A stretch of DNA of 28,243 nt from SAR202 cluster bacterium Io17-Chloro-G7. GTDB lineage: Bacteria; Chloroflexota; Dehalococcoidia; UBA3495. The DNA is taken from positions 1 through 28,243 of the forward strand of contig MUCU01000001.1 of NCBI GenBank assembly GCA_002817055.1, in the 5' to 3' direction. Position numbers and translations under genes: made by a program. The notes beneath the pieces are model-generated. The model was not told the origin of the DNA and made no database searches. It worked only from the letters and a program-made list of their open reading frames with translations. This document shows positions 11,024 to 16,641 of the stretch, one piece after another. Every line of letters begins with the position of its first letter. Positions within the stretch are counted from its first letter, which is position 1.

Positions 11024-11368
11024 CTATTTGCCGTCGTCGAAAAGAACTATAACCGCAGCGTTTGCGATCACCATTGCGTCGGTGCCATCTTCATTGGGCA
11101 CCTCCAGCCCGCCCGAGACAGATTTCACCGTGGCGGTGCCGTGGGGCAAAATCGCCGCCACCGCAGCACTATCCACCGCTCCCGGATTGGGCACCCCAAT
11201 CGTCACTTCCACCTGCATGTCATCGGCGGTCTTGCCCAACAAACGCTGAAACCCCAGGCTGCTGTGGTGTATGGCATCGAACACGGCACGGGTGGCGGCA
11301 GCGGTGTAGTTGCGACCGTGAACATCGACACCCATCCCCATCTCCATGATGCATCTTACAAGGGCCAT
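11024..11368 (-). CDS. Lin0512 family protein
   Basis: This 114-residue protein opens with MALVRCIMEMGMGVDVHGRNYTAAATRAV, cut here into its two hallmarks MEMGMGVDVHG and TAAATRAV. It continues with VEVTIGVPNPGAVD and ends with the VIANAAVIVLF strand, all features of the Lin0512 family. The structure is thought to be a small alpha/beta fold and the function is unknown. TGGAGG lies about ten bases before the ATG. The terminator at 10870-10906 lies downstream. The regulator upstream (11539-12672) is on the same strand with a 170-bp gap, so they may or may not be co-transcribed. Confidence 0.82.
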   Translation of the reverse strand: MALVRCIMEMGMGVDVHGRNYTAAATRAVFDAIHHSSLGFQRLLGKTADDMQVEVTIGVPNPGAVDSAAVAAILPHGTATVKSVSGGLEVPNEDGTDAMVIANAAVIVLFDDGK

Positions 11369-11538: not shown

Positions 11539-12672
11539 TCACGCCGCTGTCCGGCCCATGTCAGACACATCGTAGCCGCCCAGCGCTTCCACCCGGCGGC
11601 GCAGGCCAGGATTACGTAACAAGTCCAGCAAGGCCTGCACTCCGGGCTCGTTCAGCAAATGATTAGGGATTACCAAGTCGTATCTCTCTTCTTCCAGCGG
11701 CGCAAATCCCATTCCCAATGCCGAAGCGGCCACTTGCACGCCTACTCCGGCGTCGGCAATCCCCGCCGCAACTGCCCCGGCAACCGCCAGGTGCCCCGAG
11801 GCGTCGCGGTCGTATCCCTCCACCGCATCCTCAGGGATTCCATGGGAGTTCAACAGGCGGTCCAAGAGAGACCGGCTACCCGAGCCGGATTCCCGGTTTA
11901 CTATGCGAACCCCCGGCCGGGCTAGGTCGTCGACATCGAAGATTTTCTTGGGGTTGCCCGGCATTACAATCAGCCCTTGTTGCCAAGAAGCGAAGGTTAC
12001 CAAGACGCAGGGAAAGGGGACCAAGCGGCGGACCCATGAGCGGTTGTATTCGCCGGTCACGTCGTCGCGCAAATGGCAACCGGCCACATGGGCCTCTCCC
12101 AACGCTAGGCCGGTGAGGGCCTTGTAGCTGCTCTCCTCAGATGAAACCAGCCTGACGCCGCGCCGGCCCAGCCATGGCTCCAGCAACGCCATTGCGGGGT
12201 CGCAACCAAGAATGCTAAGGCCAGGCGATTCTAATTCGGCTTCGTCGAAGGGCCGTACCGTCACTTGTGATGCGCCCACTGGACTCGGCAGTATAACTCC
12301 CTCGGCATCGGCTAAAGAGTGCCTGGCTGCCGAAGGGCCGATTACCGGTCGGGCCCACAGTCGACCGCCCACCCGCCAAAGCCTGGCCCGCTGAGGTTGG
12401 AATGGAGCGCCTATGTGCTCACCAACCGTAGTGCCTCCAATGAGCTGCGCTTTGGTATTTTGCGGCTGGCCGCCAGCCAGAGAGAATAGCTCGTCTACTT
12501 GAGTCCCCAGTGCTCGAGCCAGGCGCAGCGCAACTTCGGTCGACGGCACCGATTTACCCGACTCAACGGCTAAATAGGCCTGGCGGCTTATGCCTGCCAT
12601 CGCGGACAGCTCTTGTTGGGAACGCCCAGCATCCCGGCGAAATTGGCGAAGATTATTTCTCAGTGACGTCAC
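11539..12672 (-). CDS. XRE-type HTH regulator with periplasmic-binding-protein-like (molybdate-type) domain
   Basis: The 377-residue protein starts with an XRE helix-turn-helix (about 1-65: RSQQELSAMAGISRQAYLAVESG). A large domain resembling a solute-binding protein follows (about 85-370). It contains AGCDPA- and VNRESGSGSRSLLDRLL-type motifs, as in regulators that fuse a DNA-binding head to a molybdate/tungstate-binding-like sensor. It is cytoplasmic, with no signal peptide. Such regulators often sit by mod genes, and modABC lies downstream on the opposite strand with the MerB-like gene between. The GTG at 12672 overlaps a TGACGTCA palindrome. A likely role is to sense an oxyanion and control the divergent unit, but the ligand is an inference. 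Confidence 0.87.
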   Translation of the reverse strand: MTSLRNNLRQFRRDAGRSQQELSAMAGISRQAYLAVESGKSVPSTEVALRLARALGTQVDELFSLAGGQPQNTKAQLIGGTTVGEHIGAPFQPQRARLWRVGGRLWARPVIGPSAARHSLADAEGVILPSPVGASQVTVRPFDEAELESPGLSILGCDPAMALLEPWLGRRGVRLVSSEESSYKALTGLALGEAHVAGCHLRDDVTGEYNRSWVRRLVPFPCVLVTFASWQQGLIVMPGNPKKIFDVDDLARPGVRIVNRESGSGSRSLLDRLLNSHGIPEDAVEGYDRDASGHLAVAGAVAAGIADAGVGVQVAASALGMGFAPLEEERYDLVIPNHLLNEPGVQALLDLLRNPGLRRRVEALGGYDVSDMGRTAA

Positions 12673-12965
12673 GTCGTCATTCTCTTGCCATTGCTTTGTT
12701 ATTCATCCGTCGGTGTTTAGTTTGTCGAACCATGCAATGCGCTGCCCTGCCGTTCCAAGTGAAGTCTTGGGTTTAATTAGCCTTCCCGGTCGGATTGCGC
12801 TGACTTGGCCAGTTCGTCGGCTTGAACAATTCGAGCCTCTGCCACCTCACACCTAGCAGATTCGCGAATTGCGTCGTTTATAAAATACGCTGTACTTGTC
12901 AATATATCAAGTTTATTTTACAATCCTCCAGGCAATTGCCCCCAAGTTTTCGGATGGAGGCCAAC
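12673..12965. other. Divergent regulatory region between the regulator and the MerB-like gene
   Basis: There is no coding evidence in these 293 bp. It holds the promoter at 12896-12924 and the dyad around it. Confidence 0.6.
12896..12924 (+). promoter_or_regulatory. Good sigma-70-type promoter of the MerB-like/mod unit
   Basis: TTGTCA (12896-12901) and TACAAT (12919-12924) each match consensus at 5 of 6 positions, with an optimal 17-bp spacer. The predicted start of transcription is near 12931, about 35 nt before the ATG at 12966. Five-bp inverted arms (ACTTG ... CAAGT, 12894-12912) enclose the -35 and spacer and could be an operator for the divergent regulator. Confidence 0.75.
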
Positions 12966-13613
12966 ATGGCTGACTTAGCGATACTGGACAATGCTTTCCG
13001 GATAATCATGGCCCGAATGGTGCAAACCGGCCAAGGGCCTCATTACACCGAGTTGGCCGCCGACCTGGGGGTTCAGATTGAAGAAGGAAGGCTGATCCTC
13101 CACGAGTTGATTGACACCGGAATCCCTGCCTGGCTGCATCCGGGGACGGACTACATCGCATCCTTCCCACCGTTCAACAACCTGCCGACCCAATACCGGA
13201 TCACCGCCGGCGGCGAGCAGAAATGGTTCGCCCAGTGAGGGTTTGAGTCGCTGGCAGTTTGCTGGCTTTTTCCCGGACAAACGGTATCAATCAATGCGCC
13301 TTGCTTGGATTGCGGAGATCCTATTGCCCTGGAGATGATGGACGGCCAAGTCCTTTCCGCCGATCCAGCGGGTATCTTTGGCTACACTCCCGCCGCGCTT
13401 GGAGTGGGAGCAACCGAAGGCCGCCCCCACCGTTGAGCGGAAATGAACCTCTTCCGGTCGGAAGAGCACGCCAGAAACTGGAATGGATTCAACTACGACT
13501 TTGTCGAACTACTGCAACCCTTGGATTATTGGGTGGAAAGGTTTAGCGCGCCCACTTTCCGGGAACGGGGCGCACCAGACTACATTTCCCGACGGGCTTC
13601 GGGGAACCTCTAG
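12966..13613 (+). CDS. MerB-like (alkylmercury lyase family) selenoprotein with two selenocysteines
   Basis: Read through two UGAs, the frame gives 215 residues with no frameshift; classical MerB has 212. The first 90 residues form the MerB helical and strand core, ending ASFPPFNNLPTQYRI and QKWFAQ. The first UGA is codon 91 and sits where MerB has catalytic Cys96 (Cys-Ala-Leu-Asp; here U-G-F-E). The second is codon 157 and sits at Cys159, in U-A-E-M-N-L-F-R-S-E-E-H. Cys113 in APCLDC fits MerB Cys117. MerB Asp99 is Glu94. Each UGA has a SECIS-like hairpin 11-12 nt downstream. GGAGG lies six bases upstream of the ATG. MerB cleaves carbon-mercury bonds; with no merA or merR nearby, this enzyme may have another substrate. 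It lies 42 bp ahead of modA. A pseudogene is the main alternative and is much less likely. Confidence 0.85.
13236..13238 (+). other. In-frame UGA, predicted selenocysteine 91
   Basis: The codon follows KWFAQ and precedes GFESLAVCWLFPG. The same position in MerB is Cys96, in C-A-L-D-T-L followed by L-F-P, so the register is set on both sides. Downstream sequence keeps family similarity in the same frame. Confidence 0.85.
13250..13266 (+). promoter_or_regulatory. Candidate bacterial SECIS hairpin for Sec91
   Basis: GCTGGCA (13250-13256) pairs with TGCTGGC (13260-13266) over 7 bp, two of them G-U pairs, around a GUU loop. The loop starts 18 nt after the UGA, within the 16-37 nt window known for bacterial SECIS, and has a G at its first position. 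The stem is weaker than that of Sec157 because of its tandem G-U pairs. Confidence 0.65.
13434..13436 (+). other. In-frame UGA, predicted selenocysteine 157
   Basis: The codon precedes AEMNLFRSEEHARNW. In MerB, Cys159 precedes N-H-V-H-F-F-A-S-A-E-D-A, so Met-Asn-Leu-Phe aligns with Val-His-Phe-Phe. The codon therefore lands on the second catalytic Cys. Confidence 0.87.
13449..13466 (+). promoter_or_regulatory. Candidate bacterial SECIS hairpin for Sec157, GGUC loop
   Basis: CTCTTCC (13449-13455) pairs perfectly with GGAAGAG (13460-13466) over 7 bp around a GGTC loop. The loop begins 19 nt after the UGA and the stem 12 nt after it. The GGUC apical loop is the one recognised by SelB in the E. 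coli fdhF SECIS. This is the strongest of the three candidates. Confidence 0.85.
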
Positions 13614-13655: not shown

Positions 13656-14654
13656 ATGATAGAGTTGACTTGCCCAAAGGCGATTCGAGCAAGATCTGGA
13701 CATGCCTGGAGGAGCGATCCAATAATTCAGCGTTGGTTTCAATCGATAAAGGCATCCTGTCGATTAGTCTTGGGAGCCATTTTCCTGTCCGGGTTAGTCG
13801 CCTGTGCCTCTTCGGGTGACAGAGAAACTCTGACTGTGTTTGCGGCTGCGTCCCTGATGGAAACGTTCACCGAGGTAGCTAGCGCCTTCGAGAAGGAGCA
13901 TCCGGAAGTTTCGGTAATATTGACCTTCGACGGCAGCCAGCGACTCAGGCTCCAACTGGAACACGGAGCTAAAGCCGATCTATTTGCTTCGGCAGATGAA
14001 CGGCAGATGGACCTGGCTCAAGAGTCGGGCCTGCTTGGCGGTGAAGCCGTCCCATTCACTGCTAATACCCTGGTTGTGGCCGTGTCTGCGCAAGCAGGTG
14101 CGGAAGCAGGGAGGTCCCACACCGGAGCTACCATCCATTCCCTGAAGGACTTGGCCGGAGAGGACGTGAAGCTGGTCTTGGCCCATCCTGAGGTGCCCGC
14201 TGGCCGTTACGCCCTGGCCGTAATCAATTCCCTGGCAGCTGACCCAGAGTTTGGGCCCCAATATTCGGCTCAGCTTTTAGCAAATATCGTTTCCCAAGAA
14301 CCCAACGTTCGAGGCGTGCTGCAAAAAGTGACCTTGGGAGAGGCGGACGCAGGCTTCGTTTATGCGTCCGACCTGAGGTCGATTGACAATATTTTGGCGC
14401 TTGCGGTGCCAACCGAAGCCAACGTGGCTGCAGTCTACCCGATTGCAGTATTACTTGACGCAGTTGAACTAGAGTCCGCCGAGTTATTTATAAGTTTTCT
14501 GACTTCGCCCCGCGGCCAAAAGATTCACCAAGACCACGGCTTTAACGGTTTGGATTCTCCTAACGAACCAACTTCAAACAGCGGTGCGAATAACCTCCGC
14601 ATGAGAAACCGGTTCGCCGGGCCGAGATTGTCCCACGGATCAAGGGAAGGCTGA
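13656..14654 (+). CDS. modA: Molybdate ABC transporter substrate-binding lipoprotein
   Basis: This 332-residue protein has a hydrophobic stretch and a lipobox ending LVAC (Cys50), so the mature protein is anchored outside the cell membrane. The mature part is a ModA-type binding protein: TVFAAASLMETFTEV, then GADLFASAD-like, then GRYALAV and AGFVYASD. These regions bind molybdate or tungstate in the family. The residues before the signal peptide are long (about 30) and there is no Shine-Dalgarno before the ATG at 13656, so the true start may be elsewhere. It is 42 bp after the MerB-like gene and its stop is followed two bases later by the modB start. Confidence 0.9.
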   Translation: MIELTCPKAIRARSGHAWRSDPIIQRWFQSIKASCRLVLGAIFLSGLVACASSGDRETLTVFAAASLMETFTEVASAFEKEHPEVSVILTFDGSQRLRLQLEHGAKADLFASADERQMDLAQESGLLGGEAVPFTANTLVVAVSAQAGAEAGRSHTGATIHSLKDLAGEDVKLVLAHPEVPAGRYALAVINSLAADPEFGPQYSAQLLANIVSQEPNVRGVLQKVTLGEADAGFVYASDLRSIDNILALAVPTEANVAAVYPIAVLLDAVELESAELFISFLTSPRGQKIHQDHGFNGLDSPNEPTSNSGANNLRMRNRFAGPRLSHGSREG

Positions 14655-14656
14655 AA

Positions 14657-15484
14657 TTGGCCTTTAGTATGCGACGCCGGTTCTTCGCCCAACCGTCGGC
14701 GGCAGTTGGCGTGGGCGGCGGAGCCACGCTGTTGTATGTGGCATTCATCGGGTTGCCGGTGGTGGCTTTGCTCATTAAGGCCGCTCAACAGGAGAGTTTT
14801 TTCTCCAGTTTGACCAGCGGCCCGGCCTTGACCGCCATGCGGTTATCTCTAATTTCCAGCGCCATCAGTATGGTGGTCATTGTGTTGGTGGGCACACCAT
14901 TTGCTTACCTGTTGGCCCGGAGCAGGTCGCCTTTGCTGAGGCTGGTGGACGCATTGGTTGAACTGCCATTGGTAATGCCACCGGTGGTGGCAGGGGTGGC
15001 CATGTTGATGGCCTTCGGGCGACGCGGCTTTTTAGGACCCCCCCTGGAGGACCTGGGCATCACCCTGCCATTTACCACGGCCGCAGTAATCCTGGCCCAG
15101 ATATTTGTAGCGTCACCCTTTTTCGTCAGGTCCGCCAAGTTAGGATTCCAATCCGTGGCCACCGACCATGAGGACATTTCCCGGACCTTGGGCGTGTCTC
15201 CTTGGTGGACGTTTTGGCGGGTCACGATCCCCTTGGCCGCTCCGTCGCTTCTCACCGGGCTCGCCCTATCATGGGCTCGAGCGATATCGGAGTTCGGCGC
15301 CACAATCATGTTCGCCGGGAACCTTACGGGCAAGACCCAAACAATGCCGTTGGCCATCATGAGCGCCATGGAAACTAGCCTAGACACCGCCTTGGTGTTG
15401 TCTGTATTACTAATATTGGGGTCTTTGACAATTTTAGTAATATTGGGCATTTTTGCTCGTCGGCAATGGCAGGGAACCGCGTGA
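14657..15484 (+). CDS. modB: Molybdate ABC transporter permease
   Basis: This 275-residue membrane protein has about six hydrophobic segments and the EAA loop of ABC permeases near residues 170-200 (HEDISRTLGVSPWWTFWRV). It forms the channel for the substrate delivered by ModA. I chose the TTG at 14657, two bases after the modA stop, because GGGAAGG is six bases upstream. An ATG at 14669 is the alternative. It overlaps modC. The length is slightly above the usual 225-250 for ModB, mostly at the N-terminus. Confidence 0.93.
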   Translation: MAFSMRRRFFAQPSAAVGVGGGATLLYVAFIGLPVVALLIKAAQQESFFSSLTSGPALTAMRLSLISSAISMVVIVLVGTPFAYLLARSRSPLLRLVDALVELPLVMPPVVAGVAMLMAFGRRGFLGPPLEDLGITLPFTTAAVILAQIFVASPFFVRSAKLGFQSVATDHEDISRTLGVSPWWTFWRVTIPLAAPSLLTGLALSWARAISEFGATIMFAGNLTGKTQTMPLAIMSAMETSLDTALVLSVLLILGSLTILVILGIFARRQWQGTA

Positions 15485-16641
15485 GCCACGGTTGGGTCCA
15501 CTGCCGTATCGGAAGTTTTGAATTGGAGGCTAATTGGAGCATTGAGCCGGGGGAGGTGCTTGTTCTTTTTGGCCCTTCCGGCTCCGGCAAGACCTCTACC
15601 CTTCGGGCCATTGCTGGCTTGCTACAACCTCAAAGAGGACACATAGAGATAGGCGGTCGCGTGGTCTACGATAGCGATAGTGGCCTGAGCATGCCGACCC
15701 ACCGCCGGAGAGTGGGTTACCTGACTCAACGATATAACCTATTTCCCCATCTAAATGTGGTCAGGAACATCGCTTATGGCCTCAAGTCTTGGACTTCCGC
15801 GGCCGCCGGCGAGCGAGTACGGGAACTAATTGAAGTGCTGCGCCTAGACGGTTTGGAGCAGCGGCGGCCATGGGAATTATCTGGAGGCCAGCAGCAACGG
15901 GTGGCTCTGGGCCGGGCCTTGGCGCCCAACCCTGAATTGCTTTTGCTAGACGAGCCATTTGCGTCTCTGGACATGGAACTCAGGCGTATTTTCCGGAGAG
16001 AGCTAAGATCGACATTGGCAGAGTCTAACGTCCCTGTGCTTCTGGTTACCCACGAACGGGAGGAGGCACTGGCATTGGCTGATTCAATCCAAGTGATAGA
16101 CCAAGGCAAGGTTCTGGCTCAAGGAAACCCTTTGGATGTTCTGGGGCAACCAGGGCAGGAAAGGGTGGCCAACCTAGTCGGGGTGGAGAACATGTTCCAA
16201 TTGACCATTGAAAGCCGCAATCACCCTGATGGCACTATGGTTTGCGTGGGAGGCGGATTAAGGATCGAAGTCCTTGTGGATGCCGGCGCAGCCGGTGCTC
16301 CTAGGCAGAATGCGTCCCGTTTAACCACCGGTCCAGTAGGGGTAATTGAGCCGCCTACCGGAAAGGGCGAAAGCGTGACCGTTGGCATCAGGGCTTCGGA
16401 TATCATACTTTCCCACCAGGATATCCGGGGGTCCACGGCCAGAAACCGGCTGCCTGGAGTGGTGACCGACGTGGAGTTGATGCCGCCGGGATACCAGGTT
16501 ACGCTGGATTGCGGACAGCCCTTTCGCTGCCAAATCACGGGAGCAGCCTTGGACGAGATGAGTATCCGCCCCGGAATGGACTTGTGGGCCGTATTCAAAG
16601 CTTCATCCTGCTTCCTGGTAGAAGCTAGCGCCAACACGTGA
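15466..16641 (+). CDS. modC: Molybdate ABC transporter ATP-binding protein with C-terminal TOBE domain
   Basis: This 391-residue protein carries Walker A GPSGSGKT (36-43), the ABC signature LSGGQQQR (138-145), Walker B LLLLDEP (158-164) and the H-loop His196. The remaining 170 residues contain an oxyanion-binding-type TOBE region (GIRASDIILSHQD, then VVTDVELMPPG). It supplies ATP-driven import with ModA and ModB. It overlaps the modB end by 19 bp from the ATG at 15466. A GTG at 15481 forms a tight GTGA overlap with the modB stop and may be the true start. Confidence 0.93.
   Translation: MAGNRVSHGWVHCRIGSFELEANWSIEPGEVLVLFGPSGSGKTSTLRAIAGLLQPQRGHIEIGGRVVYDSDSGLSMPTHRRRVGYLTQRYNLFPHLNVVRNIAYGLKSWTSAAAGERVRELIEVLRLDGLEQRRPWELSGGQQQRVALGRALAPNPELLLLDEPFASLDMELRRIFRRELRSTLAESNVPVLLVTHEREEALALADSIQVIDQGKVLAQGNPLDVLGQPGQERVANLVGVENMFQLTIESRNHPDGTMVCVGGGLRIEVLVDAGAAGAPRQNASRLTTGPVGVIEPPTGKGESVTVGIRASDIILSHQDIRGSTARNRLPGVVTDVELMPPGYQVTLDCGQPFRCQITGAALDEMSIRPGMDLWAVFKASSCFLVEASANT

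Follow-up and report, generated by a model that had tools for sequence, protein, structure and literature searches.

A MerB-like protein of a SAR202 cluster bacterium with predicted selenocysteine at both metal-binding positions

We analysed a 28,243-nucleotide stretch of DNA (hereafter the window) from SAR202 cluster bacterium Io17-Chloro-G7 (contig MUCU01000001.1, positions 1 to 28,243), which carries a MerB-fold gene with two in-frame UGA codons that we predict to be read as selenocysteine (Sec). The gene occupies 12966–13613 on the (+) strand, from an ATG start to a TAG stop, and by our reading of the sequence a ribosome-binding-site-like GGAGG (12956–12960, +) lies 5 nucleotides (nt) upstream of the ATG. 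The initial annotation of this DNA had described an intact 215-residue MerB-like frame split by UGA at codons 91 (13236–13238, +) and 157 (13434–13436, +), here called site 1 and site 2, and read-through translation confirmed this description. The two codons had also been placed at Cys96 and Cys159 of MerB. Alignment by phmmer with a solved MerB (3f2g) gave that same register, UGA pairing with Cys in both catalytic columns: residue 91 falls on Cys96 and residue 157 on Cys159. Glu94 (13245–13247, +) falls on the catalytic Asp99, a correction to the initial annotation. In MerB, the two thiolates take the metal and Asp99 protonates the carbon. The window protein scored 55.5 bits against the MerB superfamily profile PF03243, passing the curated cut-off of 27, and its predicted structure model has the MerB fold.

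Both UGA sites recur among relatives. A single scan of genome contigs, in which all records were metagenome-assembled genomes, returned 27 loci whose record titles name SAR202 and other Chloroflexota, Acidimicrobiia, Rokubacteria, Nitrospinota, Alphaproteobacteria, Burkholderiales, a Deltaproteobacterium and others. Site 2 was TGA in all 26 of the loci covering it, and site 1 was TGA in 6 of the 27 (L001, L002, L003, L006, L019 and L020); the remaining 21 have TGC there. We also searched genomes with alignment A1, taking E<1e-60 as the mark of a close copy; some of these genomes overlap with the 27-locus scan. The class of genome G002 yielded 13 close copies in 12 of 294 genomes (11 with two TGA codons, 2 with one), the class of G008 yielded 6 in 5 of 198 genomes (4 with two, 2 with one), and the family of G001 yielded 10 in 7 of 50 genomes, all with two; no close copy without any TGA was found in these searches of 294, 198 and 50 genomes. 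Of 51 non-redundant rows, 28 have TGA at site 1 and 23 have Cys; at site 2, 50 have TGA and the remaining row is missing. L021, with a TAG at residue 11, supplies the sole other stop in the matched region of these rows. The initial annotation had held a chance double nonsense mutation to be unlikely, naming random stops elsewhere in relatives as the observation that would speak otherwise; the retention of TGA at both sites supports that argument, and the L021 codon is the only such stop.

Position 94 was Glu in 47 of the 51 rows and Asp in 4 (the paralogues L087, L111, L112 and L113), and thus acidic in all. These four are diverged second double-UGA copies in genomes that already have one (G002, G003, G540 and G001). 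The protein also carries a CLDC Cys pair at residues 113 and 116 (13302–13313), with Cys113 in 51 of 51 rows and Cys116 in 38 of 51, which are possible further metal ligands. On a quick tree of 55 rows with 16 open forks, the pattern of Sec and Cys required at least five changes at site 1 and at least four at site 2.

The site combinations found in genomes were UGA/UGA, TGC/UGA and one TGT/UGA. We compared these with a protein database sample of 121 rows, comprising the query and the 120 hits listed of 675. Here 79 rows ended before site 2, 77 of them exactly at it; 78 of the 79 had Cys at site 1 and one, P0019, had Gly, for which a real change, an error or a code-25 reading are candidates. 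Gene callers end such genes at UGA, and the family is therefore easily overlooked. A further 37 rows had Trp at both sites, and four besides the query had Cys at both, as seen at the protein level only. Neither the genome loci nor the 121 database rows included a case of UGA at site 1 combined with Cys at site 2. Of the variants that the initial annotation had proposed to look for, UGA/UGA and TGC/UGA thus exist in genomes and Cys/Cys is represented by the four database proteins only, whereas UGA/Cys did not appear.

Each UGA is followed by a hairpin that is a candidate bacterial selenocysteine insertion sequence (SECIS). Candidate SECIS 2 (13449–13466, +) starts twelve nt after UGA157 and has a stem of 7 base pairs (bp), CTCTTCC/GGAAGAG, with loop GGUC (13456–13459) and a UGA–loop spacing of 19 nt. 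Candidate SECIS 1 (13250–13266, +) has a 6-bp stem including two G-U pairs, a 5-nt loop, AGUUU (13256–13260), and a spacing of 17 nt. Both lie within the loop, stem and spacing limits quoted in a review for bacterial SECIS elements (loop 3–9 nt, stem 4–16 bp, G in the first two loop positions, spacing 16–37 nt; PMC13188914), and hairpin 2, at −9.1 kcal/mol when folded by itself, passes the energy limit of −7.5 kcal/mol quoted there, which hairpin 1 does not clearly do.

Among the 49 rows with complete DNA at hairpin 2, 42 had 7 pairs and GU in the loop and 6 had 6 pairs and GU; the remaining row, L087, had 7 pairs and loop GATC. Rows left out were those of five loci duplicating others, of L019, which lacks site 2, and of L023, which has an N in hairpin 2; since the rows are related, hairpin counts are not independent. 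The codons that form the hairpin were near-invariant (Leu162 CTC 49/49, Phe163 TTC 47/50, Arg164 CGG 42/47, Ser165 TCG 49/49, Glu166 GAA 42/45 and Glu167 GAG 45/47), and comparison columns with at least 90% amino-acid identity outside it had top-codon fractions of 0.31–0.87. Across 23 distinct sequences, hand-picked from a motif-script set, 96.3% of cells were paired, versus 46–61% when the hairpin was slid. That script missed L080 and L087, the latter being included in the codon, pair and residue-94 counts. Two pairs showed both-sided change, in five cells, three of them with a Glu to Lys replacement (L022, L024 and L025), and the covariation score was reached by 0 of 500 shuffles. Four Cys homologues (L081–L083 and L089) retained 3 to 6 of the 7 pairs, and none of the four had GU at loop positions 2–3, L083 having it at 1–2. 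Hairpin 1, with 6 pairs and GU in the loop, occurred in 28 of 28 rows with TGA at site 1 versus 3 of 23 with Cys.

The genomes that carry the gene mostly encode machinery for Sec. In the 26 genomes behind the first loci (that of L022 left out), 23 had strong matches to SelA, SelB and tRNA-Sec; G006 had SelB and a fragment of SelA, its tRNA match lying right at the threshold and not being counted, G019 had tRNA-Sec only, and G001 is taken up below. Fifteen of 19 further carriers had all three; G541 and G194 had tRNA-Sec and SelB, G314 tRNA-Sec only and G540 SelA only. In total, 38 of 45 carriers had SelA, SelB and tRNA-Sec, and all 45 had at least one of the three.

More distant MerB-like relatives show related arrangements. 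One group (L084, 1342–1986, −; L088, 1351–1980, −; L099, 1459–2124, +; L100; and L101) has Cys at site 1, Asp at the place of Asp99 and TGA at site 2, followed by the same or nearly the same hairpin with 6–7 pairs. Two others (L086, 1483–1926, +, and L092, 1447–1821, −) have TGA at both sites together with the canonical Asp. A fully paired hairpin follows each of their four TGAs, with loop GGUC in three.

Downstream of the window gene, on the same strand, are genes for a ModA-type substrate-binding protein (13656–14654, +; 42 nt downstream; TIGR01256, 127.3 bits against a cut-off of 62.5), a ModB-type permease (14657–15484, +; TIGR02141, 200.1 against 182.6) and a ModC-type ATP-binding protein (15466–16641, +; TIGR02142, 264.9 against 285.05, just below cut-off). 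Upstream and divergent is a regulator with helix-turn-helix (HTH) and PBP_like domains (11539–12672, −; PF12727 and PF01381), adjoined by a Lin0512-family gene (11024–11368, −) with 80–98% identity in five relatives. These were the five nearest window genes scanned. Of 11 loci compared, 5 (L001, L120, L121, L122 and L124) kept the order regulator, MerB-like gene, ModA, ModB, ModC; we did not find it in the remaining 6, two of which (L019 and L020) break off inside the gene or shortly past it. In the window clade the gene is predicted to head an operon with the ModABC-type transporter, beside the divergent HTH/PBP regulator. ModA diverges faster (59% identity to L001) than ModB (87%). Clustering of open reading frames (ORFs) over 28 loci, based on crude ORF calling that includes shadow ORFs, gave no neighbour family common to most of them, and Pfam scans of 20 chosen nearby genes (104 had been picked earlier) returned assorted families.

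Two UGAs at the Cys positions with which MerB grips its metal, kept in relatives together with hairpins, suggest that the cell likely builds a two-selenium MerB-like enzyme. The explanation that we favour, with a probability of about 0.58, is a MerB-like protein in which both UGAs are read as Sec, giving a diselenol site (Sec91, Glu94 and Sec157) that binds a soft metal and cuts a carbon–metal bond. Sec at site 2 is close to certain and Sec at both sites highly probable; organometal lyase chemistry has somewhat better than even odds, a metal role for the protein being something we infer. Each UGA would be decoded by SelB and tRNA-Sec using the hairpin that starts 12–13 nt downstream. The selenolates of Sec91 and Sec157 would take the metal in place of the MerB thiolates, and Glu94 would fill the role of Asp99 by protonating the leaving carbon; the substrate could be organomercury, organotin or another organometal. 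More tentatively, unrecognised selenium-dependent MerB-fold lyases with a diselenol site may be widespread. They may degrade methylmercury or other organometals in marine and soil bacteria, most of which have no recognisable MerA; across phyla the second position would stay Sec, with the first alternating between Sec and Cys.

Several observations weigh against this explanation. The window protein fell far short of the NCBIfam MerB equivalog cut-offs (26.5 bits against 193 and 21.4 against 200). At hairpin 2, the count of both-sided changes was matched by 28 of 500 shuffles, and in L096 a one-sided change loses a pair. Hairpin 1 also occurs in the three Cys rows noted above and is weak, at −6.5 to −6.9 kcal/mol alone and −8.3 kcal/mol with flanks against the published limit of −7.5, and over 45 nt of the window a competing structure is the minimum-energy fold. 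G001, the genome of the nearest locus L001, has SelB but neither a complete SelA nor a strong tRNA-Sec match. In the groups searched SelA is widespread in any case (196 of 294, 134 of 198 and 43 of 50 genomes), so its co-occurrence with the gene adds little specificity; within one class the comparison, 10 of 12 carriers versus 196 of 294 genomes, is uninformative. The nearest scanned neighbours are of molybdate type, without mer genes, and just 9 of the 45 carriers have a MerA match above its cut-off. Finally, the affinity of selenium for mercury and other soft metals is far higher than that of sulfur, and so tight a hold makes product release a real problem for a lyase. A metal-removing partner, another metal, or a binding rather than a lyase role could be ways around it.

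That last possibility belongs to the strongest competing explanation, a double selenoprotein that is no carbon–metal lyase and would serve as a metal-binding chaperone, as the partner of a sensor or as a redox protein working through a diselenide, tied for example to the adjoining ModABC-type transporter. We consider it a serious contender, though the less probable one. It would fit the gene order kept in five loci, the Glu at the place of Asp99 in most rows, the scarcity of MerA and the release problem. It sits less easily with the retention of all three catalytic positions (Sec or Cys, Glu or Asp in every row, and Sec), with the canonical Asp in the distant double-UGA relatives, and with the six loci in which the Mod genes were not found. 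Hints, no more, of a link to mercury also come from a MerA gene about 3.2 kb from the copy in G340 and from a MerR-family regulator shortly upstream of the copy in G443.

Readings in which one or both UGAs do not specify Sec fare much worse. If only site 2 were Sec, the UGA at site 1 would be a stop or a point of poor read-through, and the result would be either a short N-terminal product or control by the selenium supply; the far stronger signal at site 2, the weakness of hairpin 1 and the Cys at site 1 in 23 of 51 rows are what one would then expect. This is improbable given that TGA stands at exactly codon 91 in 28 rows, each with the GU-loop hairpin, that the tree needs repeated Sec/Cys changes there, and that the frame after site 1 is open and conserved. 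A stop at site 1 would leave the conserved Sec signal at site 2 without a purpose. We rejected stop-only readings on these grounds. A decaying merB pseudogene with two nonsense mutations, which in-frame stops under the standard code would suggest at first sight, has a negligible chance: the same codons recur in dozens of genomes, 50 of 51 rows have no other stop, the protein is conserved after each UGA and the hairpin codons are nearly frozen. We rejected it on these grounds. The 37 database rows with Trp at both sites, none combining Cys with Trp, might instead point to a genome-wide reassignment of UGA under a Trp or Gly code. However, 9 of 24 other window ORFs that we picked end in TGA, which argues against any such reassignment, genome homologues have TGA or Cys codons at the sites and never TGG, carrier genomes have Sec machinery, and the 37 Trp/Trp entries all belong to clusters with a longest contig of 971–2713 bases. 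We therefore rejected this too, as scarcely credible, and at the protein level we read the Trp/Trp rows as TGA/TGA translated with code 4, chosen by the gene caller on short contigs.

The window gene resembles several known systems and matches none. With MerB (PF03243; structures 3f2f and 5c17) it shares the fold, by its predicted model, and its two metal-binding positions and its acid position align with those of MerB. It differs in lacking the equivalog residues Cys96 and Cys159, with UGA at both aligned positions, in having Glu94 for Asp99, in its sub-cut-off NCBIfam scores and in its molybdate-type neighbours. SaoL (NF040728), the MerB-like organometallic lyase of the SAO selenoprotein operon, is likewise MerB-like and a predicted selenoprotein, and a review table that describes it as having one Sec in the motif CU (PMC13188914) also lists the ABC-transporter parts SaoB, SaoP and SaoX; the window gene, too, adjoins an ABC transporter. 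Yet the window protein scored 35.6 bits against the SaoL cut-off of 140, and it has two UGAs, neither beside a Cys codon. Its transporter is ModABC-type, with ModC at 133 bits against the SaoA cut-off of 360. An identification of the window gene as SaoL was rejected on its low score, the absence of a CU doublet and the absence of SAO neighbours among the five nearest genes. Three scanned members of the L084 group scored 41–55 bits with the SaoL profile, and none of eight relatives scanned reached its cut-off (21.7–55 bits). A 2020 review names 'Organic mercuric lyase MerB2' among predicted selenoproteins (PMC7435645), a Sec-containing MerB homologue for which the passage gives neither number nor place of Sec. 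MbdU and the UxxU metal-binding protein (putative mercuric reductase) likewise combine two Sec with a link to metals in the review table, where their names mark them as other families.

The initial annotation had supposed a diselenol MerB-fold enzyme to be undescribed. This stands for the two-Sec form: the literature searched, in which Haft and Gwadz 2023 and Haft and Tolstoy 2025 were covered via a review, yielded no MerB-like protein carrying Sec in both catalytic places. It does not stand for Sec in a MerB-like protein as such, already listed for SaoL and, as a prediction, for MerB2 in the reviews cited above; the part without precedent in that literature is the predicted Sec at both catalytic positions. 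If the prediction is true, selenium at both metal-binding positions would change the view of possible turnover and product release in MerB chemistry. It could then point to an overlooked organometal sink and a new twist on microbial attack of metal–carbon bonds. The gene would also be an unusually clean case of recoding, with two recoded UGAs in one small protein and a SECIS signal in nearly frozen codons across phyla.

Two loci have possible mercury-related neighbours. In G340, the double-UGA copy (L125:12044–12658, +) is accompanied by a gene for MerA with an N-terminal heavy-metal domain (L125:7441–9276, −), a short-chain dehydrogenase gene and a PIN-domain gene lying between the two; this was the only genome in which we noticed MerA near a double-UGA copy. 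In G443, the MerR-family regulator (L126:7632–8126, +) lies about 330 nt upstream of the double-UGA copy, has Cys residues near its C-terminus and scored below the cut-off of every equivalog listed. Past MerA in G340 lies a gene of the DUF3179 family, which the review includes among selenoproteins.
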